From: Thermoplasmata archaeon
GTDB taxonomy: Archaea > Thermoplasmatota > Thermoplasmata > Lutacidiplasmatales > UBA184
Reading direction: 5' to 3'
Length of the DNA stretch: 64,000 bases
NCBI GenBank assembly: GCA_027314915.1
Contig: DAHUZZ010000003.1
Coordinates: 1 to 64,000 of the forward strand
Under the pieces are notes generated by a model. That model saw nothing but the letters and a program-made list of their open reading frames with translations, was not told the origin of the DNA and searched no databases. Both the position numbers and the translations under genes were made by a program. How positions within the stretch are numbered: position 1 is the stretch's first letter; each line of letters opens with the position of its first letter. This document shows positions 49,173 to 64,000 of this stretch, piece after piece.

Positions 49173-49440
49173 CCTTCTCCCCGGAGCTCCTCGGTCGCGC
49201 TCTCGACTTCCAACCCGACCGGCCCGGCCGGTCGAGACGAACCTGGACGGGAGGTCCGCTCGCTCCGAGGGGCCCGAAAGCGAGGGCCGGGGGAGCCCCG
49301 AGGAAACTAGGTGCTCCCGGCGGGGAGCCTATTGACTATTCATGGGTTGTTACCATGACGTCTCTGGGCTCGGTCCACGCACCGTCTTCGAGGGCCGCTC
49401 CGGCAACCCGGGATCCGTGCTCCATCTCCTCCGTTCGCTC

Positions 49441-50394
49441 TCAACCGGAAGAGAGCCTACCGAAACGGTAGCGGAGGTTGCCGAACTTTCCTCGGAGGAT
49501 CTGCTTCAGCAGCGCGCCGGTACTTGGGCCGTTGTAAATTGCGAAGTCCTCGAAGGCATGAGCGCCGGGCCTCGACTTCACCGCCTCGGCTGCATCGCGG
49601 ACGGCCTTGAGGCGATCCACGGTCATCGTGAGCGCCTTCTCGTGCGGTTGGTATCGGGCCCCTACGGGATAGTCACGGAACGGCCTATCGGACATCTCGA
49701 TGTGTCCTCCCAAGACTCGGGTCACGGCGCGGCTACCCGCGAAGCGGACGAGCCGGTCGAGGCTACAGAGAAAAGCGTCGAAGTCGAACGCGTACAGGCG
49801 AGCGGGGCAGACCGTATCGCCGGTCAAGAGGAACCCCGTCCATCGATCGAAGATCGCGATTGAAGCGGGGTGGTGGCCGGGAATCGAAAAGACCTCGAGT
49901 ACGCGTCCTCCAAGGTCGAACCGACCGACAGCGTCCAGGTTCTCAGAGAGTCCGAAGAACCCTCGAACCGCCTCGGGCTCTTTCCCGACGATTCGGGTGA
50001 AGGGACGGTCGATGAACTGAGCGTCTCCCGCACGGTGGTCGGTGTGAGAGTGGCTGTGGGCCACCACGAGTTCGTAGTTCGCCCGAGGATGATGGGTCAG
50101 CCACCCGCTGATCAGTCGGTCGATGACGACTCGTATGGGGAAGCGTGCAGGGTCCGAGGTGGCTCCCGTGTCCACGAGGAGTGCCCGTTGGTTCCCGAAC
50201 AGAAGGTAAAGGAACGGAGCCTCGAACGAAACGTCCTTGCTCTCGCGAAGCACGAACGTGTGCTCATCATAGGAATGCACCTGGATCGGTGGATCGGTCC
50301 GGTGCCTCGGCGAAGCGGAACCATGGATCCAACGAACCTCCATCTGCCCCGCCATCGGTGCGTCGGTCTCAAAGTCGATAGCTTCGCGGCTCAT
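49441..50394 (-). CDS. MBL-fold metallohydrolase
   Basis: LLVDTGATSDPARFPIRVVIDRLI...ELVVAHSHSHTDHRAGDAQF (HxHxDH)...VFSIPGHHPASIAIFDRWTGFLLTGDTV. Confidence 0.88.
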   Translation of the reverse strand: MSREAIDFETDAPMAGQMEVRWIHGSASPRHRTDPPIQVHSYDEHTFVLRESKDVSFEAPFLYLLFGNQRALLVDTGATSDPARFPIRVVIDRLISGWLTHHPRANYELVVAHSHSHTDHRAGDAQFIDRPFTRIVGKEPEAVRGFFGLSENLDAVGRFDLGGRVLEVFSIPGHHPASIAIFDRWTGFLLTGDTVCPARLYAFDFDAFLCSLDRLVRFAGSRAVTRVLGGHIEMSDRPFRDYPVGARYQPHEKALTMTVDRLKAVRDAAEAVKSRPGAHAFEDFAIYNGPSTGALLKQILRGKFGNLRYRFGRLSSG

Positions 50395-51032
50395 GGCTCT
50401 CGGCGCCCCCGGCTCGGCGCGAACGACCGTGAAACACCGTCAAACAGCGCGCTCTGGATCGAGCGAAGAATGCGGGGCGCTCGGTTCCTTCTTGGCGTGG
50501 CGAGCGCCCACTCCAGGGTACATCCGTCGAGTAGGGCGAGCAGGATAGCTGCCGTGCCTTCTGCGTCGAGATCGGCGCGGTACTCTCCGCGCTGCACGCC
50601 TTGAAGTAGGAGCCCGGCGAAGAGTTTGTGATGTCGCTCGTACCGGGCATCGATCTGGCTCCGGAGCGATCGTCGGTGCGCGGCCGATAGAAGCAACTCG
50701 AGGTTCAGCCGGAGCTGATCCGTTGAGGCGGCCTGTGCCCAGTCGAGGTAGGTCGTGAGCAGTTGGTTGATTCGCTCGGTGGAAGAGGCCGGGTCTGAGA
50801 ACCGGCTCGTGACTTCCTCGATCCGGCGTTCCAGCGTGAGGTCCTGAAGGGCCAGGAGGAGCTGTTCCTTGCTCTCGAAGTGCCCGTAGAGGGCCCCTTT
50901 GCTGAGTCCGCTGGCTTCGACGATATCGTCCATCGACGTCTCGTGGATTCCCCGTTGACCGACAACCCGGCGGGCGGCGGCAAGAATCCGGTCTCGAACC
51001 TCGGCCCGACGGGCCTCGGAGATCTTGGGCAT
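50391..51032 (-). CDS. TetR-family transcriptional regulator
   Basis: EVRDRILAAARRVVGQRGIHETSMDDIVEASGLSKGALYGHFESKEQLLLAL; ATG at 51032; ATGA overlap with the MBL gene. Confidence 0.92.
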   Translation of the reverse strand: MPKISEARRAEVRDRILAAARRVVGQRGIHETSMDDIVEASGLSKGALYGHFESKEQLLLALQDLTLERRIEEVTSRFSDPASSTERINQLLTTYLDWAQAASTDQLRLNLELLLSAAHRRSLRSQIDARYERHHKLFAGLLLQGVQRGEYRADLDAEGTAAILLALLDGCTLEWALATPRRNRAPRILRSIQSALFDGVSRSFAPSRGRREP

Positions 51033-51059
51033 GTGGTAAGGAATACGCCAGCCGTACAT

Positions 51060-51077
51060 AAACCGACTGGTCGGTTT
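51060..51077. promoter_or_regulatory. Perfect TetR-type operator AAACCGAC-TG-GTCGGTTT
   Basis: 8-bp perfect inverted repeat about 28 bp upstream of the TetR ATG. Confidence 0.8.
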
Positions 51078-51211
51078 TAATCGGAGCCGGACCTCGTCGA
51101 CCCTCGATCCCCCTGGTGATTCCAGCTGTCGATTCCCGGTACGCAAGAACGGCCGGGCGCCCTGGGGGCAGCTTCCGGGCCCCCTCCGGGACGGGTCGGT
51201 CTCAGTCCCCC

Positions 51212-51247
51212 AACGTAAGATTTTATAGGTCACTGAGAACTTACGTT
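51212..51247. promoter_or_regulatory. TA promoter/operator: AACGTAAG ... TTTTATA ... CTTACGTT
   Basis: 8-bp perfect arms 51212-51219 and 51240-51247 flank the TATA-like TTTTATA at 51221-51227; start codon at 51253. Confidence 0.7.
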
Positions 51248-51252
51248 CGCCG

Positions 51253-51681
51253 ATGGCGGCCCCTCGTTTGCCCGCCCACTGTTACCGCTGCGGGTACTAC
51301 TGGTTCCCGAGGCGGGTGCAGGTCCGCATCTGTCCCCGATGCAAGTCGCCCTACTTCGCGACCCCTCGGTTGCGGATCCCAACCTTCGGTGGGGGCCTGG
51401 GAATTGAGGCCGTGATCGGGGACCGACGTCCGGCCGTCATCCGACTCGCCGAACGGTATGGCGCTCGCGAGGTGAGGGTGTTCGGCTCCGTGGCCCGAAG
51501 GGAAGCCACCCTCGCAAGTGATGTGGATCTGTTGGTATCCCCCGTGATGCGCCGTTACGATCCCATCTCCCTCCAGCGTGAGCTCACTCGGCTGCTCGGT
51601 CGCAGGGTCGACGTGGTTACCGAACAGTCACTTCACTGGTGGGTCCAACCCCAGGTCATCGCCGAGGCGATTCCCCTGTGA
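51253..51681 (+). CDS. mntA: Zinc ribbon fused to MNT nucleotidyltransferase (MntA-like antitoxin)
   Basis: CYRCGYYWFPRRVQVRICPRC zinc ribbon, then VRVFGSVARREATLASDVDLLV (GSxARxE..SDVDLLV). Confidence 0.85.
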   Translation: MAAPRLPAHCYRCGYYWFPRRVQVRICPRCKSPYFATPRLRIPTFGGGLGIEAVIGDRRPAVIRLAERYGAREVRVFGSVARREATLASDVDLLVSPVMRRYDPISLQRELTRLLGRRVDVVTEQSLHWWVQPQVIAEAIPL

Positions 51682-52022
51682 CCTCCGATCGAACGACCGA
51701 GCGGCTCGCCCTCGCGATCGAGCACCTTCAGAACGCGGTCGAGTACTCACGACGGGGTCGGGAGTTGTTCCTCGACTCCGGGAACCCCGACACTCGACGA
51801 TTGGTCGAGGGCGAGCTCCGAAAGGCGTTCGAATCCCTCGATCGGCAGGGGGACGCCTTCTTCCACGCAAACCCTGCCCTGGACAGAGAATGGATTGGAG
51901 GAGTTCGTCAGTTGCTGACCCACGACTACGCGGACGTCGATCCGGGGACACTTTGGAAGCTCGTCCGCGAAGATGCGCCTCGGTTGCTGCGCCGACTCGT
52001 TCGGGCTACTGCCCCGACGTGA
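51678..52022 (+). CDS. hepT: HEPN-domain protein (HepT-like toxin)
   Basis: RLALAIEHLQNAVEYSRRGRELFL...VRQLLTHDYADVD (Rx4HxY motif); GTGA overlap with the MNT gene. Confidence 0.8.
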   Translation: MTSDRTTERLALAIEHLQNAVEYSRRGRELFLDSGNPDTRRLVEGELRKAFESLDRQGDAFFHANPALDREWIGGVRQLLTHDYADVDPGTLWKLVREDAPRLLRRLVRATAPT

Positions 52023-52102
52023 GCACCTACGACGCACGTCCGCGGTTCAGTTTCTCACGGCAGACCGGCTCGGGGGTCGCGTCGTACGTGCTCACTTCGA
52101 GC

Positions 52103-52526
52103 TCACGGGGGCTTCTCTGCGTCGCGGGCATGCGCTAGCAGAGAGCCCCAGAGGAAATCCTGTCTCTTCGGGTCGATCTTCCCGAGCGAGCACGGCCTGC
52201 CGTCGATGAACACCCGGTCTGCGTGGTAACGCAGTCCGTACTGCAGCAACGCTCCCAGGATCGGCGCGGCATCCTTCCCTCGGGGGATGAGGTGGTAGCG
52301 AACGCGTCTTCGGTCCAGTGGGTCCGCGGCCCGGATGATCGCTCCTTCGTGGAGAAGATTGCGAAGCTGGAGGGGCAACGCGCGGGGGGGTGGGGCCCGG
52401 ATTCCGGCGGAGGATCTGGCCGAAGGTCGGGTCGCCGAGGAAGGCGACGTCCCGAAGGACGAGCAGCGCCCACTTCCGTCCGAAGCACTCCAGGCTCTCG
52501 GGGATCGGGCAGATTTCGAACGGCAC
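52103..52526 (-). pseudogene. HxlR-family regulator, frameshifted at a G7/C7 run
   Basis: Frame 1: VPFEICPIPESLECFGRKWALLVLRDVAFLGDPTFGQILRRNPGPTP. Frame 2: LPLQLRNLLHEGAIIRAADPLDRRRVRYHLIPRGKDAAPILGALLQYG. Junction at the 7-G run 52384-52390. Confidence 0.75.
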
Positions 52527-53408
52527 CTGAGACGTGAGCGGATGAGGGGACGGTGAAGACCGAGGCACAGATTTCAGTATGCTGGGATGTCGGTTCCGAT
52601 AAGAAGATCGTAGACCAATGTTACGAACGACGACCATCGGATCGAGTCGAGGCCCGGGCTATCGTGTGCCCGCACGATGCACTGCGTCGCGCGAGCCGCC
52701 GACCCCGTAGACGTTGTGAATTACCGCGGAATGGCGAGCTCAGGTTTGCGCACGGGTTCTTGCGGCGTTTCTCTGCGGACCTCTCTCGCCGAGCGCAAGA
52801 ATCCCTCCGTAGAAAGCATCGGAGGGGTCCCCTCGGCTTCGGCGGGCGGGTCGCTGGAACGGAGCGCCGACCATCGCCTCCGCTCGGCTCCGCAGTGTGC
52901 GGAGGGTCTTTGGGGTCTGGGCTCCGATACCAAGATCGGCTCGACCTTCTCTCCGCGCGCGTACGTTGGATACCCGGAGGCGGCGCCTCCTCCACCGGCT
53001 CGTCGCCCTTTGCTCCGGTTCGCTTGCAGGAACGCTCCCCCGGTGAGACGTCGGGGAATCCCGCTGGGTGAGTTGCGGGCCGCGCCTGCCCTTCCCGTGG
53101 CCCTTGGCCATGGGCGTCGGGCCGGCCTCGAATCGCGGGGCCGGCGCTGCCCGGTTCCCCCGGTCGGTCCCTCGGCGGCCCCCGTGTGCGCGGAGAGCGC
53201 GCGCGGTCGCACCGCCGTACCTCGAACCGGGTACTGGGCGGAGGGCGAAGATCTCGTCGCCGGCATGAGGGGCGCCTTCACTCGCCGCACGCGCGAGAAT
53301 ACGTACGCGATCCCGCCTCCACCCCGGATTCATTACCCCTCGTGCCCGATGTGGGAGACGTAGAGGACACCCGGCCTCGATTCCCGGGTCGGTCGGACGG
53401 TTGCCCGT

Positions 53409-54700
53409 TCAGCCTTGGCGGAGGACTGCCCGATCCATCCCCATGGCGGAAACGATCTGCCAACCTCCCGTCAGGAATCCCGGTAGCTCGTCCACGCTCA
53501 CCAGCTTCTCGGCGGGCGCAGCGGACGCACCGGGGACCTTCTTCCGAATCAATTCGCGCGCCTCCTCTAACGACAACTTGGCCGGGTCGATCTGCCGTAG
53601 CTCTTCGTTGCTGTAGCCCATCACACCGAGGATCGTCGTCAGGACCTCCGCGTGGGTGGTCACCCGGTTCAGCGGAGGGTACGGGGAGAGGAGCGGCTCG
53701 CACCGTCGGTACGCGTCCCGCATATCCTCGACCGGCGTCGGGGTCAGGCGGGGCCGCCCGAGGGTGTCGTGCCGTTGGGTGATGTCCCCTTGGTGGCCGA
53801 GCCAGAGCTCGGTGTAGGCGAGCGCCACCTTCCCCTGGGACTCGGCGAACCGCACTTGGGACGCGAAGAACGAGCGGGGGACCTAGGGGCGCTGGCCGGT
53901 GAACCCGCCAGCTTGGAACGCCGTGCGGACGGCGTCCGAGACGTTCAGCGCCCGGAAGAACGGCTTGTCGACGTTCCGGACATGGATCAGGTCGGTCTCC
54001 GGGCCCAGCGCCTCACCCCGAGCCAACCGCTCGGCAAGGTGCTCCCGCAAGGAGCCGCACCCCTCCTCCCCGAGGAAGGTGAGGTAGCCGTGCCGCGCCT
54101 TCGAGAGTTCGGGGCGGACGACGACAAGGGCAGGGGAATGGGAGGACGCGACGTCGTCTCGGCCGATCCGGAGTTCGGGGAGGTCCTTGCGTCGGAGGCC
54201 GTCGGTCCCAAGGTAGTTGCCGAGGACGTGGGGGCGGACCCCGGAGAACGTCATGAGGGCACAGATGACGCGGTTCCTGGGCGTCGCATCTTTGAGAATG
54301 GCTCGCCGCTCGTCCTGGGGGGGACCCGCTCGTCTGCGAGGGTCGGGGCCCTCTGAGCGTCCCGGACCTTGACGCGCAGGTCGATCTTGAGGCCGTGGTG
54401 GAGGAGCCACGACTCGACGCCCTTGAGGTGGGCGGCGGTCGAGGAGCCGGCCTGGCCGCGCTTCTGCTCGGCCTGGACGTCGTCGTGGAGGAGGTCCCGG
54501 ACCCGTGGAGGCTCCATCGAGGCGAGCGCTTGAGGGCGGACCCGCATGAGTCGGCAGAAGAGGGAGAGAGAGCGGAGACGCACCTCGGCGGTCGCACGGG
54601 AACCCTGGGCGAGGTTCTCCCACCAGCGGCGGAGGTCGGGATCCTCCAGCGCGACGGTGCGCCGAGGGCGGAGGCGCGCGCGGCGGACCCTGGGGAGGGC
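53409..54700 (-). pseudogene. Archaeal tyrosine recombinase, degraded
   Basis: N-term LEDPDLRRWWENLAQGSRATAEVRLRSLSLFCRLMRV; frameshift at G7 54317-54323; core ICALMTFSGVRPHVLGNYLGTDGLRRKDLPEL; in-frame TAG at 53883-53885 (RP*VPRSFFASQ); C-term LWLGHQGDITQRHDTLGR with His at the expected catalytic Tyr. Confidence 0.85.
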
Positions 54701-54796
54701 TTGAACGTAGAATGGTAAAACCCACCGAGTAAGGAGGTGCTCCCGGCGGGAATCCCCTCCAAAGGGGGGTAATACTCGAACTACATCTCCCTCCCG

Positions 54797-56134
54797 GTGC
54801 CGACCGCCCTCCCCTCGACCAAGAAGACACGGCTCGAAGATCCTCTCGTCCACGAGTGGTGGGACGTGCTGTACACCAACTCCCCCGCCACCGGGGACAA
54901 CTACCTGAGGCAGCTCTACAGGTTCTGCCTGGTCGCCGGCACGACGCCCGCCGCCCTCAGAAACATGAGCGCCATGGCGCTGCAGCGCACGGTCAACAAG
55001 TGGATCGCGCTCGTGGCGCGGACGCCCAGCGAGCGGACCAAGAAGCCGATCGAAGCCAGCTCGCGGAGCACGCAGTGGAAAGCCGCCAAGTCCTACTTGG
55101 AGCATGTCGGGCGCAAGTCCGTCTTGGCGAAGGTCACCAAGGTACGAATCGCGGGTTCGCGAACCAGTACCAGGCGCCGTGAGGAGATCGTTCCGACTCA
55201 GGAGGAGGTCGGTCGGATGCTTGCCGCCGCCGGCCCGAGGGCCCGGATGGTGCTCGCGATATCGAAGGACTCGGGCGTTCGGCCGGGGGCGCTCGGATCC
55301 TATACCGGGGACGAGGGCCTCCGGATCAGGGACGTCGAGGGCCTCACCGTGGTCGGCGACAAGATCGTCGTTCCGGAGTGGCCGGCGATGCTCACGGTGT
55401 ACGACCGGTTCCCAGGCGACGAAGAGAGCTACTTCACTTGGCTCGGCAACGAGGCCCTTGAAGCGATCCGCGCGTACCTCACACAACGCCTCAAAGGCGG
55501 GGAAGAACTCGGGCCGGATTCGCCGCTCCTCGACAACCGGGGCGCGAAGCATCTCTTCGTCCCGACGAAGAAGATCTGGAACATCACTTCGAAGCCGCTC
55601 CGGCGCTCCGGGTTCGTCGGCCGCCCCTACCTTACCCGTAGCTACTTCGTCCAGCAGCTGGAGCGGGCCCAACAAAAATGGAAGTTCCCCTCCGAATGGA
55701 AGATCGCGTGGGAGGGGCACGCGACCGACGAGCGAGGTCGCCTCCGGATGCAGATTCCCTACGGGACCGGGAAGGGCCGCCACAACGAGGCTTACTTGAA
55801 GGACCACCGGGACGCGTACCGCCACGCGTACGAGTTCCTTGCCACGGTTCCGGCTCGGGAGGACTCCGAGGCGGAGGACCGCCTGGTCCGGCGAATCCTC
55901 GAGCGTCTCGGGTTTAGCGGAGAGCAGCTCGACCGACTTCTCCTCGCCGACCCCGACGAGCTCAGGCGCCAGGTCGCCGAAAGGCTCCGCCCGCCGGCCC
56001 GGGCTCCGGGCCGTCGGAGCGAACCGCTCGAAGAGGCCCGCCGGCTCGCTGCCACCGGCGAGTGGGAACCTGTCCACGTCGCGGACGGCCAGGTGATCCT
56101 CGAACGCGTACACCTACCGCTTCCTCCGGAGTAG
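54797..56134 (+). CDS. Archaeal tyrosine recombinase/integrase, intact
   Basis: LEDPLVHEWWDVLYTNSPATGDNYLRQLYRFCLVAG...ISKDSGVRPGALGSYTGDEGLRIRDVEGL...SGFVGRPYLTRSYFVQQLERAQ...WEGHATDERGRLRMQIPYGTGKG; colinear with the degraded neighbour. Confidence 0.85.
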   Translation: MPTALPSTKKTRLEDPLVHEWWDVLYTNSPATGDNYLRQLYRFCLVAGTTPAALRNMSAMALQRTVNKWIALVARTPSERTKKPIEASSRSTQWKAAKSYLEHVGRKSVLAKVTKVRIAGSRTSTRRREEIVPTQEEVGRMLAAAGPRARMVLAISKDSGVRPGALGSYTGDEGLRIRDVEGLTVVGDKIVVPEWPAMLTVYDRFPGDEESYFTWLGNEALEAIRAYLTQRLKGGEELGPDSPLLDNRGAKHLFVPTKKIWNITSKPLRRSGFVGRPYLTRSYFVQQLERAQQKWKFPSEWKIAWEGHATDERGRLRMQIPYGTGKGRHNEAYLKDHRDAYRHAYEFLATVPAREDSEAEDRLVRRILERLGFSGEQLDRLLLADPDELRRQVAERLRPPARAPGRRSEPLEEARRLAATGEWEPVHVADGQVILERVHLPLPPE

Positions 56135-57030: not shown

Positions 57031-58371
57031 ATGCCGCCGAAGGCTTCGCCACGTACCGCTGGGACCTCCGCCCAGAACACCGCCGTGGCCGCTGGGGATT
57101 CCGCCGAAGCCGGCGGAGCCGCCGCTGAGGGCTCCGCCGAGGACCGCCGGGTCGGCGCGGAGCGTGCGGCGACCTCCGCCGACATGGAGAGGGCGCGGGC
57201 GAAGGCCGACCGGATCCGGCTCCTGGCGGGCATGGGCGTATCCCCGAGCGCGATCGCGAGGGACTCGTCGGTGCCCGTCCGCGCGGTCCGCGCTCTCCTT
57301 GAGGAGTCACCTCCGACCGGCCCTGTCGACCCCGCCGCGCCGGCCCCCCCGGACGAGCCACCCGCTCCGTCGCTGTCGAAGTCCACTCGTGAGCGACTCG
57401 AGAAGGCGATGGCAGCGCTAGGGCCTGCGCCCAGGAACGATCCGTTCGACCTCTCGAACATCCAGCCACCGGCGCCCGACGGCGGCGCCGGCATCGCGCT
57501 GGGCAGGAACTTCTCGATCATGACGAACGAGGACGCGTTCATGAAGAGCGCCCTCACGTTCGGCGTCGACAATGGGATCGCGGCCGGGATCGGGATCCAG
57601 TTCTTCAACTCCGGACGGAAGGTCTCCGACTACCGGGAGTTGGAGGCCATCATCCGCCGGGCGGGTGTCAGGCCGAACATCAGCAGCTCAATCGTTTCGA
57701 CCTACCGTAGCCTAGTGGATCCGAACGCCGGCAAGCTGGCTCCTGGCGCCTGGTCCCCAGCGGGCGACGAAGACGACGCGATCACCCGGACGCGCCAAGC
57801 GCTCCTAGCAGATCGACTGGAGCGCCTCGAGGGGTTGCGCCTGGATCGCCTCGAACGTGAGCTCGTGGGCGGAACCGGCGGCGCGTCGTCGGCCGAGCCG
57901 GAGGTCGTTCGCCTCCGCGCCGAGCTCGACGTCCTCAAGCGTGAGAAGGACCAGAGGGCGCTGCTCGACGGAGTCACCGCCCAGCTTAGCGCTCAGATCA
58001 AGCCGCTCCAGGATCAGCTCGCCGAACTGCGGTCCCGTCCGGCGGCCGGTCCCAAGTCGCTGACCGATGTCCAGGCCGGTGTCTACGAGAGCGTGGCGGC
58101 GGCGTTGATCAAGACCGCCGACAACAAGTTGGCCAGGTCCGGCGCCGGTCAGGCCTTCTTGCAGAAGCTGGTCGCGGAGGTCGGGCCCGGCTGGGCTCGC
58201 AAGCTGTCCGTCGAATTGAACCCCGACGGCCCGCCGCCCGAAGTCCTGGCCGCGACGGTTCCCACCGAGGCGGATCTTCTGCTCGCCGCCGCGAGCCTCG
58301 GAGGTCATCCCGCCGCGGTCGAGCCGGAGACGGCGCCTGCGCAGCGCACCCCGTCGTTTCGGTACAACTAG
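57031..58371 (+). CDS. Hypothetical element protein with N-terminal HTH-like and C-terminal coiled-coil regions
   Basis: RLLAGMGVSPSAIARDSSVPVRAVRALLEE (HTH-like); coiled coil RTRQALLADRLERLEGLRLDRLEREL...VVRLRAELDVLKREKDQ; RBS-like GGAGG upstream. Confidence 0.75.
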   Translation: MPPKASPRTAGTSAQNTAVAAGDSAEAGGAAAEGSAEDRRVGAERAATSADMERARAKADRIRLLAGMGVSPSAIARDSSVPVRAVRALLEESPPTGPVDPAAPAPPDEPPAPSLSKSTRERLEKAMAALGPAPRNDPFDLSNIQPPAPDGGAGIALGRNFSIMTNEDAFMKSALTFGVDNGIAAGIGIQFFNSGRKVSDYRELEAIIRRAGVRPNISSSIVSTYRSLVDPNAGKLAPGAWSPAGDEDDAITRTRQALLADRLERLEGLRLDRLERELVGGTGGASSAEPEVVRLRAELDVLKREKDQRALLDGVTAQLSAQIKPLQDQLAELRSRPAAGPKSLTDVQAGVYESVAAALIKTADNKLARSGAGQAFLQKLVAEVGPGWARKLSVELNPDGPPPEVLAATVPTEADLLLAAASLGGHPAAVEPETAPAQRTPSFRYN

Positions 58372-59046
58372 ATGATCGACGTCAACACCGCGACAGGCCG
58401 ATCCGAGTTCGTGCGGAAGGCGCTTCGGGTCGCAGTGGCGGAGATCAACGCTTCCGCAGCTCAGCTTCCGCCGCCTCCGCCCTCCCTCGCGGGCCGTTCG
58501 GTCACCGTGATGGTCGTCGTGCTTAACGACGCGACCCAGGCGCGCTTGGTCACCCAGAACGTCGACGACGGCCGCGGCGGCACGCGCCTGGTCCGGATGC
58601 CGGACTTGAACCTGCTGACCTCGCCCGTTCGGGTCGAGGGCACCGCGGTGTGCCTCCGCTTCGGCCCGGGGGTGCATGCCGAGATCGTGACCGAGGTCGT
58701 GAGCGAGACCAACGCCTCCGCGTTCATGGCGTTCGACACGTTCGTGTGCTTGACGTTGGGTTACACTTCCAGGCGGTTGCCCGACGGCTCCGTGGAGAAG
58801 GAGCCCTTCGACCTCGCGCGCGGTTTTCTCCGCGGCGTCGTCGACGGTCCGAACGTCGAAACTTTGCTTCCGGAAATGGCCCAGCTCGGGGATGCCCTGG
58901 TCCTGGTCCGCCGCCGGTTGGATTCGTTGCGCGCCCAAGCTACCGCAGGGATCGCGCCGCCTGAGGCCGCCGCCGAACTGGCCACCCCCGGGCCGCGACG
59001 GATTACCCCTGTCCCCGGATCTTCCGGTCAGGAGAGCGGCGCGTGA
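58372..59046 (+). CDS. Hypothetical element protein
   Basis: Directly abuts the previous stop; coherent sequence MIDVNTATGRSEFVRKALRVAVAEINASAAQ...GLGYTSRRLPDG-type core. Confidence 0.65.
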   Translation: MIDVNTATGRSEFVRKALRVAVAEINASAAQLPPPPPSLAGRSVTVMVVVLNDATQARLVTQNVDDGRGGTRLVRMPDLNLLTSPVRVEGTAVCLRFGPGVHAEIVTEVVSETNASAFMAFDTFVCLTLGYTSRRLPDGSVEKEPFDLARGFLRGVVDGPNVETLLPEMAQLGDALVLVRRRLDSLRAQATAGIAPPEAAAELATPGPRRITPVPGSSGQESGA

Positions 59047-59255
59047 CGCCGGGCGAGGACGCGATCCCCGAGATGGTCGCCAAGCGGCCGATCCTGGCCC
59101 TCGTCGCCGGCAGGGTCCAGACCGAGCTGGGCAAGCTCGACGACGCGCTCGCCCGCGTCGGGGCTCTCGAGTTGAGGCTCGCGGAAGTGGAGGTCCGGGT
59201 CGGCGCCCTGGAAGCCAAGAGGGCGCGCCGGAAGAAGTGGGCGAGCGGGAAGTGA
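59043..59255 (+). CDS. Small coiled-coil element protein
   Basis: GRVQTELGKLDDALARVGALELRLAEVEVRVGALEAKRARRKK; GTGA overlap. Confidence 0.6.
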   Translation: MTPGEDAIPEMVAKRPILALVAGRVQTELGKLDDALARVGALELRLAEVEVRVGALEAKRARRKKWASGK

Positions 59256-59259
59256 TCTC

Positions 59260-59586
59260 GTGTGGGCTTCCACGCGCGAGGCCCGGTCCGGCCCGGTCAT
59301 CGGCCTGGTCGAGATCATCGTGCCCGTGCCGGGCGACGGGCGGCAGCTGATCGTAGCACGCCTGACCGAGAGGATCTCGTTCACGATCGGGAGGCGCATC
59401 AGCGTGCCGATGATCGTCCGGACTGTCGACGTCGAGAAGGTGAGGTCCCCCGTGATCCGCGTCCAGGTCGCTCGGGAGCAGGATACGCCACGCAAGATGA
59501 GCGAGCAGCTCGCGGCGGCGTTGGTCAAGGAGATCGAGGCCGTGATCGAGGCGGAGCTCGAGGGCGGGAAGCTCGGGATCGGCTGA
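59260..59586 (+). CDS. Hypothetical element protein
   Basis: GLVEIIVPVPGDGRQLIVARLTERISFTIGRRISVPMIVRTVDVEKVRSPVIRVQVAREQ. Confidence 0.6.
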   Translation: MWASTREARSGPVIGLVEIIVPVPGDGRQLIVARLTERISFTIGRRISVPMIVRTVDVEKVRSPVIRVQVAREQDTPRKMSEQLAAALVKEIEAVIEAELEGGKLGIG

Positions 59587-59624
59587 CGGGTGGGTATTAG
59601 GGGTAGCCCGCCGGTCCGGCGACG

Positions 59625-59936
59625 ATGCCGACCCCGATCTTGGACGCCATCCGCGGCGCGATCGCCCGACGCCAACGCCTCACGGACTTCCGGGGCGTCG
59701 TCGCACGCCCCGGTCCGAGCAGTGCCAGATACACCGATGCGCCGAAACTCGCTCCTCCGCCCGGGAACTTGCCGGCGCTACGGCAGTCGTTCCATGGCGT
59801 GGTCGTTCCCGACACGTACGAGCGGGCGCCGGCGCCCGCGCGGGATCGCGGATCGGTCCCCGGCGGCACGCCGTCCGCGTCGGCGGCCCCACCTCGATCG
59901 AGGAGCGAGCTGTTCGGCTTCCAGATTCCGCCCTGA
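59625..59936 (+). CDS. Hypothetical Pro-rich element protein
   Basis: MPTPILDAIRGAIARRQRLTDFRGVVARPGPSSARYTDAPKLAPPPGNLPAL; start about 22 bp after the third GGTATTAG motif. Confidence 0.5.
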   Translation: MPTPILDAIRGAIARRQRLTDFRGVVARPGPSSARYTDAPKLAPPPGNLPALRQSFHGVVVPDTYERAPAPARDRGSVPGGTPSASAAPPRSRSELFGFQIPP

Positions 59937-59937
59937 G

Positions 59938-60516
59938 ATGACCGTGCCTGGCAAGCGAGCCGATCCGAAGGTCCGACGGTCGGGTTACCGCTCGATCCGC
60001 CCGGCCGACCATCCGGGCGGTCCCTGGATCGGTCACTCGAACGCCGCCGGCATGGTCGACCTGGGGCCGCACCCGCTCGCCGTCACCTACGCGCCGACAG
60101 GCCCCGCGCCGCCCGCCCCGAAGCCGACCCCCGTGCCGACGGTGGTGATCCACCCGACGTACAGCTCGAAGCGCCGGATCGGTCAGGTCGGCGTACTGCG
60201 TCTCGACGACGCGGAGGTCCCGCCGCCGTGGGTCGAGGAGCGGCCCCTCCCTGGGCCGCCGGACGCTGCCCCCGCGGTCGCGACCGTCCGCCACGTGCCC
60301 ATGCGCGCCGAGGACTGCTTGCCCTACGTCCCCGAGGGCACCCGCGCCATCGAGGGCATCCCCCCGGTCAACGCGGGGGAGCAGGCGGAGCGCACGGCGG
60401 CCTGGGGCGAGGCGTTCGGAGGGGTGATGTTCGGGGCCCCGCTCGTGGCGGGCAGCCTCGTCCTCCCGCCGTCCACCCCGATCGTCCTCACCCACCAGGA
60501 GGGGATCGGCCAGTGA
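59938..60516 (+). CDS. Hypothetical element protein
   Basis: MTVPGKRADPKVRRSGYRSIRPADHPGGPWIGHSNAAGMVDLG...EGTRAIEGIPPVNAGEQAERTAAWGEAFGG. Confidence 0.6.
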   Translation: MTVPGKRADPKVRRSGYRSIRPADHPGGPWIGHSNAAGMVDLGPHPLAVTYAPTGPAPPAPKPTPVPTVVIHPTYSSKRRIGQVGVLRLDDAEVPPPWVEERPLPGPPDAAPAVATVRHVPMRAEDCLPYVPEGTRAIEGIPPVNAGEQAERTAAWGEAFGGVMFGAPLVAGSLVLPPSTPIVLTHQEGIGQ

Positions 60517-61029: not shown

Positions 61030-61046
61030 ACGGTACTTAGTACCGT
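61030..61046. repeat. Perfect palindrome ACGGTAC-TTA-GTACCGT spanning the stop codon of the 61037 gene
   Basis: 7-bp perfect arms; the minus-strand TAA stop is exactly the 3-nt spacer. Confidence 0.75.
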
Positions 61047-61834
61047 TTGTAACTCTCTGTCCGGGAGACCACTGAGGACCCTTCGGGCATCAGCGTCGCG
61101 ACGAGCCCTGAGGGCTTGGCGGCCGGCGGCGGGGGCGAGGCGGGCGGTTCCTGCAGTCCGGCGACCGGTGGCTCCGCGAAGTTGATCTTGTTGTGGATGG
61201 CGTTCTCGATCTCGCTCTTGCAGCGCACGAGGTCCTTGTTCGCGTTCTGCCAGTTGAGAGCGTTGCCGTACACCACAAGGGCCGACACGACCCCCGCCAG
61301 GATCAGGAGGACGTACACCGTTTGTGAGAAGTCCGAAGATCCGGAGATATAACCGGCGAATGTGATGGAGGCGACGATCAGAAGCACCGCTAGGGCGGCC
61401 CACCCCTGCCGGGTGTACGAGGCGCACTTGTCGTACAGGACCCTCAGTCGTTCGATCCGTTCCTTGTTCCCGGTGCGCTCTCGGGCCTGTGCTAGGAGCT
61501 TTTCGAGGTCGGCCCGGAGAGCGGGGGCCTTGAGTCGAATGATCTCCTCTAGCGCGTGGACCGTGGCGCCTCCGTCCGCGGACGTTCCGGTAGCGGACCC
61601 CCGGCCGCTCTGCATCGCCTTCCAAAGTTCCGAAGTTGCGAGCGATCGTGCGAACTCTTGGGTCGCAAGATCGTCGAGGTCCTTGCACTTCTTCCAGTTC
61701 TCGTCGTAGAACTCCTTCTTGTCGGCCTCGTACTGACGAGCGGGTGCAGCCCCGCCCAGGAAGTAAAGATCCGCGGCGCCCGCGATGGCCGCCACGACCA
61801 ACGCGCCCAGAAGCGCGGGATCCGGCGGCGTCAT
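61037..61834 (-). CDS. Membrane protein: N-terminal TM, coiled coil, 2-TM hairpin
   Basis: LLGALVVAAIAGAADLYFLGG; EKLLAQARERTGNKERIERLRVLYDKC; WAALAVLLIVASITFAGYISG...VYVLLILAGVVSALVVYGNAL. Confidence 0.75.
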   Translation of the reverse strand: MTPPDPALLGALVVAAIAGAADLYFLGGAAPARQYEADKKEFYDENWKKCKDLDDLATQEFARSLATSELWKAMQSGRGSATGTSADGGATVHALEEIIRLKAPALRADLEKLLAQARERTGNKERIERLRVLYDKCASYTRQGWAALAVLLIVASITFAGYISGSSDFSQTVYVLLILAGVVSALVVYGNALNWQNANKDLVRCKSEIENAIHNKINFAEPPVAGLQEPPASPPPPAAKPSGLVATLMPEGSSVVSRTESYKRY

Positions 61835-62364
61835 GCGGGGGGAGACCCGAGGACCTCCTCCCTGATCTTGGAGTTCACGGTGTACGCCGGGTAGCTGGAG
61901 TAGACGTAGAAGAGGAGAGCGCTGAGCGGAGCCGCGTTGAACCTGGACTTGATGGAGTAGAAGCCTTGGGCTGTCTCTTCCGGGAGGCCTATCCAGACAC
62001 CGGCGCCGCGGGAGTACCCCGCCTGGGTCAGGCCGACCCGGGCCGCCTCCTGATGCCCGGACTTCTCTTGGGACACCATGCCCATCTCGGTCAGACGCTC
62101 CAGCTCCCGCTGCACAGCGTACGAGGACGGGCCGTAAGGCCCTGCGGTGAACTCGAAAGCGAGTTCCCCCCGCCGCCCGGGTTCTGTCTCGGCCTGGACG
62201 AGGAAGAGCTCCTTCATGAGTCTAGTCCGTCCGTCGACCGGCGCGGCGAACGTGAGCTTCCCCGAATCGTTCTTGCCGTCCGGGCAGACGAGGATCGCGT
62301 AGATCGCCGCCTCGGCGTCGAGCCGCGCGGTCTGTTCCGCGCGGATCCCGCCCGTGGGATCCAT
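61831..62364 (-). CDS. HTH-type protein, possibly YwgA/SocA-like
   Basis: RTRLMKELFLVQAE...LAFEFTAGPYGPSSYAVQRELERLTEMGMVSQEKSG resembles (Y/F)xxGPYS..L..DLe.L...G(L/M)(I/V); ATGA overlap with the TM gene. Confidence 0.55.
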   Translation of the reverse strand: MDPTGGIRAEQTARLDAEAAIYAILVCPDGKNDSGKLTFAAPVDGRTRLMKELFLVQAETEPGRRGELAFEFTAGPYGPSSYAVQRELERLTEMGMVSQEKSGHQEAARVGLTQAGYSRGAGVWIGLPEETAQGFYSIKSRFNAAPLSALLFYVYSSYPAYTVNSKIREEVLGSPPA

Positions 62365-62538: not shown

Positions 62539-63576
62539 TCACTTGATGTAGACCTTGGCGCCGCGTTCGGTGAGCGAACCCGCGGAGTCGTTGAAGGCCT
62601 GCGTGTCGCGGAGGCCCCCGGTGCAGAGGACCACGATCACCCTGTTGCCGAACAGCTTCTGGTAGCCCTCGACCTGGCCGGTCAGCGTTTGGAGCGGCTG
62701 CCGGGTCTTCGGGTACTTGATCTCGATGACCGCGCCGCACGCGACGAGGTCCGCCCGAGTTCCCCCTACCGCCATCTGGTGGACCACCTTCTGGCTCCGG
62801 AAGTGGCCCGAAATGGCCCCGGCGAGCTCCGCCTCGTAGTTGATCTCCTCGTCCCAGTGCTTGGTGAAGGTGTACGAGTCGAGGAACTTGCAAAGGTCAT
62901 CGAACTGGCCGACGTCTGGTTGGGACGCGAGCGGGGGGGCCGGACCGGAGGACGCGGCGGGCGCGGAGTGCGACGGGGTAGGCGCCGCCACCACGTGGTC
63001 AGGGACGCGGATCTGAGGGGGAGCCGGGGCGGTCGCGACGGCAGTGCGTTCCGCGTCGGAGAGGGCCGAATCGCTCGCCGTGGCGGCGGGTTTCGGTTTG
63101 GGTGCCCAGCCCTGCTTCTTGCCCAAGTCGACCAAATGGGCCTGGAGCCGACCCTTCTCGCCGATCAGCATGTCCTTGGCGTCCATCTGGAAGAAGCTCT
63201 TCTTCGCCGGAAGGGGGAGATCCAGATCGCGCAGGAGCTTCCGCATGTCCTCCTCTGACATCCGCCCGAACACCTCGTCCAAGGAGAGCGTCGAGTCCGC
63301 GAGCACTCGATCGGCCAGCTCGTCCTTTGGTCCGCTAGGGGACCTGCCAGACTTCTCGAGGATCGCCGAGAGGTCGCTCTTTCCGAGATACTTTCGCACC
63401 GCGAGCTCGGTCACCGTCTGGGACGGCGTCGCTTCCGTTTGCCCCACCGGCCGGGCGAACGGGGACCCGAGATAAAGGGAAACGGTCGTAGCTCGAGCTG
63501 CCCGATCCCCTGCGGGAAAAGGGGGGGTCCTCAGCTCGACGAGGCGAACTCGACCGCCGAGAAGGGTCCCAGTCAT
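62539..63576 (-). CDS. SAP domain plus PD-(D/E)XK nuclease-like protein
   Basis: SDLSAILEKSGRSPSGPKDELADRVL (SAP); C-term YEAELAGAISGHFR...GTRADLVACGAVIEIKYPKTRQPLQTLTGQVEGYQKLFGNRVIVVLCTGG (D-x-EIK then QxxxY). Confidence 0.75.
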   Translation of the reverse strand: MTGTLLGGRVRLVELRTPPFPAGDRAARATTVSLYLGSPFARPVGQTEATPSQTVTELAVRKYLGKSDLSAILEKSGRSPSGPKDELADRVLADSTLSLDEVFGRMSEEDMRKLLRDLDLPLPAKKSFFQMDAKDMLIGEKGRLQAHLVDLGKKQGWAPKPKPAATASDSALSDAERTAVATAPAPPQIRVPDHVVAAPTPSHSAPAASSGPAPPLASQPDVGQFDDLCKFLDSYTFTKHWDEEINYEAELAGAISGHFRSQKVVHQMAVGGTRADLVACGAVIEIKYPKTRQPLQTLTGQVEGYQKLFGNRVIVVLCTGGLRDTQAFNDSAGSLTERGAKVYIK

Positions 63577-64000
63577 TCGTGAGCCGGGCGGCAACGGCCG
63601 CACATGCACTGCATCTGTTGAAGGTCCGTATCGGCCACGTGGCCGGGAAGGACCGCGCGTGTGAACAGCTCGCCCAGAGCAACGAACGCGCCGCGTTCGG
63701 GATGCGTCCTAGCCGACTTCAAGAGGAGCTTCTTGTGCTCGATGACGTCGTGAACCGCATCCCACGCGAGTGCGTCGGCTTCCCGGTTTTGGTCCTCCGG
63801 GACCCAGCACCAGTCCACGGAGGCGAACGCCTTGCCCACCTCTCGAATGAGCTTCTCGCGGTGGGCGATCGCCCGCGCGTCGGCCACACCTGGCCGTACG
63901 GGGGAACCGGCCGCGAGACGCTCCATTAGGGACTTCGAGTCTCCGTACATTCGAACCCGACCGGCGAAGCCCCTCTCTCTCAGGTAGTGGAGCGCTGAGA
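63573..64000 (-). CDS. RNase H-like protein, C-terminal part (5' end outside window)
   Basis: SALHYLRERGFAGRVRMYGDSKSLMERL...VDWCWVPEDQNREADALAWDAV; ends with a Cys-containing tail QMQCMCGRCRPAHE; ATGA overlap with the nuclease. Confidence 0.7.
   Translation of the reverse strand, partial: SALHYLRERGFAGRVRMYGDSKSLMERLAAGSPVRPGVADARAIAHREKLIREVGKAFASVDWCWVPEDQNREADALAWDAVHDVIEHKKLLLKSARTHPERGAFVALGELFTRAVLPGHVADTDLQQMQCMCGRCRPAHE

Follow-up and report, generated by a model that had tools for sequence, protein, structure and literature searches.

Probable independent cargo in a tRNA-Glu-integrated element of a Thermoplasmata archaeon: an RNase HI-like protein and a sparse SAP-like/PD-(D/E)XK nuclease

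Two adjoining minus-strand genes at the right edge of the window (the 64,000-nt stretch analysed here, which belongs to a 144.6-kb contig whose adjoining DNA was included) are carried by a 13.9-kb element (54735-68637) that has integrated into a tRNA-Glu(CTC) gene at its 3′ end. One encodes an RNase HI-like protein and the other a nuclease that joins a SAP-like N-terminus to a PD-(D/E)XK domain. The most probable explanation is that the two genes represent variable, independent cargo of the element and are neighbours by chance, rather than the parts of a two-part system. The nuclease, carried as element cargo, adds a member to a sparse orphan family of archaeal nucleases.

The integrated element

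An earlier note on this DNA placed the two genes next to an integrase-bearing element, and this context is confirmed by att repeats that flank the element and by an integrase that adjoins one of them. The left att copy (54735-54751, TCCCGCCGGGAGCACCT) repeats over 17 bp the tRNA-Glu 3′ end at contig 68620-68637, and this repeat was absent from all 60 Markov-simulated sequences. The element integrase (54797-56134, plus strand, 445 aa) begins 46 bp past this copy, and 43 of 103 family genomes contain relatives of it. The G+C content of the element is 68.6%, compared with 73% in its flanks. An older, second element at the same tRNA-Glu site has left a remnant (49308-54735) that includes a broken integrase (approximately 53409-54661) and, at its outer end, its own att copy (49308-49324, CCCGCCGGGAGCACCTA).

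The tRNA-Glu(CTC) gene lies beyond the window at contig 68622-68728 (L001:8623-8729), and the att of the element falls within its 3′ exon. Its T-loop contains an insert of 31-32 nt, which is read around by ARAGORN and is probably an intron. This insert is conserved: 11 relatives match over the full length at 84-92%, and other genomes of the family match the first 62 nt only.

On the plus strand, genes of unassigned function occupy 57169-60516, the first of which has a homologue in the sister element described below. The minus-strand genes are ordered as a Prim-Pol-like protein (contig 65852-67867, 671 aa), a 193-aa protein that matches no family (contig 64974-65555), a second tyrosine recombinase comprising the catalytic domain only (contig 64277-64891, Pfam E 6e-11), the RNase H-like protein, the nuclease, a 177-aa protein and a membrane protein. 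The name Prim-Pol is putative, being taken from two homologues that match Prim-Pol when the 671-aa sequence itself matches no family. The 177-aa gene (61831-62364), whose product matches PADLOC candidate family PDC-M19A (E 1.3e-10) as well as phrog_14939 and looks by eye like a winged helix, overlaps by 4 nt the gene for the membrane protein (61037-61834, 265 aa, with a sub-threshold SLATT-like match, E 0.045). The resulting two-gene cassette (61037-62364) is possibly a defence cassette in its own right. An archaeal IF5A gene is also found nearby on the contig; together with named relatives at class level, it assigns the host to the Thermoplasmata.

Searches of viral contigs with the nuclease, the RNase H, the Prim-Pol-like protein, the second recombinase and the first plus-strand protein revealed no close relatives, and a profile scan returned three weak partial matches.

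A sister element without either gene

An element in another genus (L086) encodes a recombinase that is 80.6% identical to the second recombinase described above, together with a Prim-Pol homologue (37%). Nucleotide homology between the two elements stops at contig 64271, just beyond the recombinase stop codon, and counterparts of the RNase H-like, nuclease, 177-aa and membrane-protein genes are all missing from L086. Since L086 retains the core of the element without the RNase H-like and nuclease genes, these two genes constitute variable cargo. No gene of this element type is better conserved than the catalytic-domain-only recombinase, which has relatives of 39-46% in four more genomes.

This comparison bears on a possible role for the cargo in replication or maintenance, in which the Prim-Pol-like protein would make primers for the RNase H-like protein to remove, with the nuclease processing replication or recombination intermediates. 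Both genes share their strand with the genes for the Prim-Pol-like protein and the recombinase, and the Prim-Pol domain is present in homologues of the replication protein, but L086 possesses the recombinase and the Prim-Pol homologue with neither gene. Because L086 does without both, neither is needed by the element type. We consider a joint replicative role improbable, leaving some room for a part played by the cargo in replicating or processing the element's own DNA.

The SAP-like/PD-(D/E)XK nuclease

The nuclease open reading frame (62539-63576, minus strand, 345 aa counted from the ATG at 63576) comprises a SAP-like N-terminus, a disordered, flexible linker rich in proline and alanine, and a C-terminal PD-(D/E)XK domain. 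The earlier assignment of the C-terminal domain to the PD-(D/E)XK superfamily is upheld by both model and alignment. The AlphaFold2 model has a modest mean pLDDT of 70, but its C-terminal domain reaches approximately 90 and folds as helix-helix-three strands-helix-strand-helix-strand. Residues E244, D276, E285 and K287 are invariant across nine diverged homologues, and QxxxY is kept in the closest relatives. Thus, the core fold and the D and (E)xK residues that define the superfamily are all present. The SAP motif fared less well: the pattern reported earlier is there, is kept in the two closest homologues (L109 and L110) and appears as a helix-loop-helix in the model, but it scores 19.7 bits against a Pfam cut-off of 23.9 bits, and a Pfam SAP match is obtained for only one of nine family members.

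By Foldseek, the best PDB match to the model is the CdiA-CT toxin 4g6v (E 4.5e-3, probability 0.99), with restriction enzymes and the Can2/Cdn1 nucleases further down the list, all of these matches being weak. A sequence search of the PDB gave nothing useful, none of the libraries searched contains a curated family for this nuclease, and the plasmid and phage collections contained no relatives of it. Neither the nuclease nor the RNase H-like protein had a match in PADLOC 2023.

Overlapping reading frames and the nuclease start

The TGA of the RNase H-like gene (63573-63575) does overlap an in-frame ATG of the nuclease frame (63574-63576), as had been noted, but the translational coupling drawn from this overlap is doubtful. 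Residues 1-47 of the nuclease are disordered in the AlphaFold2 model (pLDDT 32-41) and have no counterpart in the homologues, which begin near codon 44-48 of the window frame; in one homologue, an in-frame stop immediately precedes this start region. The overlap might therefore be incidental, and the nuclease probably does not start at the overlapping ATG. Codon 44 is a GTG (63447), and 29 nt upstream of it lies a TTTATC stretch, rich in AT, at the distance expected of a leaderless archaeal gene. This promoter argument is weak by itself, as we estimate that chance alone places an AT-rich stretch at that distance a few percent of the time. Nonetheless, a leaderless GTG fits better than the overlap ATG, and translation may begin there to give a product of 302 aa. 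The recombinase, RNase H-like and nuclease genes lie on one strand with tight spacing, the RNase H-like gene starting 14 bp after the recombinase gene, which is consistent with a single transcript.

A diverged RNase HI-like protein

The RNase H-like gene (63573-64262, minus strand, 229 aa) is cut by the window edge at 64000, and its remainder was read from the contig. Its earlier assignment stands: the protein matches Pfam RVT_3 above the cut-off (E 1.4e-5), and its AlphaFold2 model adopts the RNase H fold and matches RNases HI (3hst, E 4.5e-9, TM (target) 0.84). When aligned to a profile built on 26 chromosomal RNases HI, the metal positions are occupied by D16, D83 (at the E48 position), D108 and D163, yielding D-D-D-D in place of the DEDD tetrad, with Asp83 replacing the catalytic Glu. 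The TNN motif, invariant in 26 of 26 chromosomal enzymes, reads SVH, and GDSQ reads GDSK. An insert of 25-30 aa spans approximately residues 51-78, where pLDDT is about 48-61 and the alignment could be wrong; from the sequence, E59 within this insert might conceivably substitute for the catalytic Glu. In RNase HI, the catalytic Glu position binds metal and TNN contacts the RNA strand. Because these metal-binding and RNA-contact positions are altered, the activity of the protein is uncertain.

Alternatively, the element might have acquired the gene from a host RNase HI, and this copy might now be decaying or repurposed, with no enzymatic role. Its best relatives are RNases HI of the family, of which 96 of the 102 other genomes contain one each, and the Asp at the E48 position, SVH for TNN and Lys for the Gln of GDSQ are changes of the kind that this origin would leave. 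However, the frame runs unbroken for 229 aa, the model folds well and the protein keeps the catalytic Asp residues at the three other positions, and we give this reading a lesser, though appreciable, chance. As for the idea that the host lost its chromosomal RNase HI and that the element copy took its place, the host assembly is 84% complete, and a gene neighbouring the chromosomal locus was not found in it either.

Co-occurrence of the two genes

Full-length nuclease relatives occur in two of the 102 other genomes of the family, at 31% (L109) and 33% (L110) identity to the window copy, and the domain is found in eight of 389 other genomes of the phylum. Neighbours were checked for the two full-length relatives, a small sample, and for seven domain-level relatives in the phylum. 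None of these nine has an RNase H beside the nuclease. RNase HI is encoded on a different contig (G451) or 63 kb away (G416) in the two genomes that contain the full-length relatives. The conserved co-occurrence by which the earlier note proposed to judge the pairing is thus missing from the other genomes. In L003 and L034 the nuclease also neighbours a membrane protein, a resemblance that we judged to be chance, as the proteins are not recognisably related. At the L110 locus (G416:C4:308000-326000), the nuclease homologue is separated by approximately 6 kb from genes for three proteins: a methyl-directed restriction enzyme of the DpnI family, one that is HNH-like and a large one resembling a HATPase by eye.

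The earlier note had further suggested that the pair could act on RNA:DNA hybrids or R-loops. As a two-gene module for defence or element maintenance, the RNase H-like protein would remove or bind the RNA of a hybrid or R-loop and the nuclease would cut the exposed DNA. The overlap of the two frames on one strand, the confirmation of both folds and the acidic residues at all four RNase H metal positions are compatible with such a module. It is nevertheless quite unlikely, as the nuclease start probably lies away from the overlap and both the catalytic Glu and the RNA-contacting motif are lost from the RNase H-like protein. Moreover, an RNase H/nuclease system is unsupported because the cargo is missing from L086, no relative has an RNase H neighbour and the ATG overlap is possibly incidental. 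Still less probable is a lineage-specific two-component nuclease, in which an RNase H-fold protein without the RNA-contact motif would recognise hybrids or R-loops of rival elements and direct the SAP/PD-(D/E)XK nuclease to them. Literature searches on the RNase H/nuclease pairing, E48D and PDC-M19 found nothing direct.

Discussion

Under the preferred explanation of independent cargo, the SAP-like end would anchor the nuclease on DNA, and the flexible linker would let the PD-(D/E)XK domain make metal-dependent cuts through E244, D276, E285 and K287. Its most likely use would be the degradation of competing or invading DNA, although we put a role in defence or competition at somewhat short of an even chance; the case for defence is circumstantial, consisting of the L110 context near the DpnI-family enzyme and the PADLOC candidate match of the 177-aa gene. 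The RNase H-like protein would be no subunit of the nuclease but a divergent form of RNase HI, either working by itself on hybrids or structured nucleic acid or having only weak catalytic activity.

These observations document, for an archaeal class that has received little study, mobile elements whose cargo is exchangeable, and they describe a sparse SAP-like/PD-(D/E)XK nuclease family. The RNase H pairing is a negative result: here, the overlap of reading frames did not by itself point to a conserved module.

Comparison with known systems

The RNase H-like protein shares its fold, D16, D108 and D163 with archaeal RNases HI (Sulfolobus tokodaii 3aly/2ehg, Halobacterium 4e19) and with the RNase H domain of Rv2228c (3hst). 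It differs from these enzymes in having Asp for Glu, no TNN, an insert before helix A and extra C-terminal helices. With the PD-(D/E)XK superfamily, for which the motif is D-(D/E)xK-QxxxY, the nuclease shares the alpha-beta-beta-beta-alpha-beta core and the E/D/ExK set, and its closest relatives also share QxxxY; its SAP-like N-terminus and long linker set it apart. Homologues match phrog_28707 ('nuclease') at 7e-9 and 1.6e-6, whereas the window nuclease does so at only 0.0076. A review of tRNA-integrating archaeal elements (PMC8371274) leaves Thermoplasmata unmentioned. The element described here has in common with those carrying tyrosine integrases an att in the 3′ part of a tRNA gene, an integrase beside the att and tandem or nested remnants, and it differs from them in its cargo.
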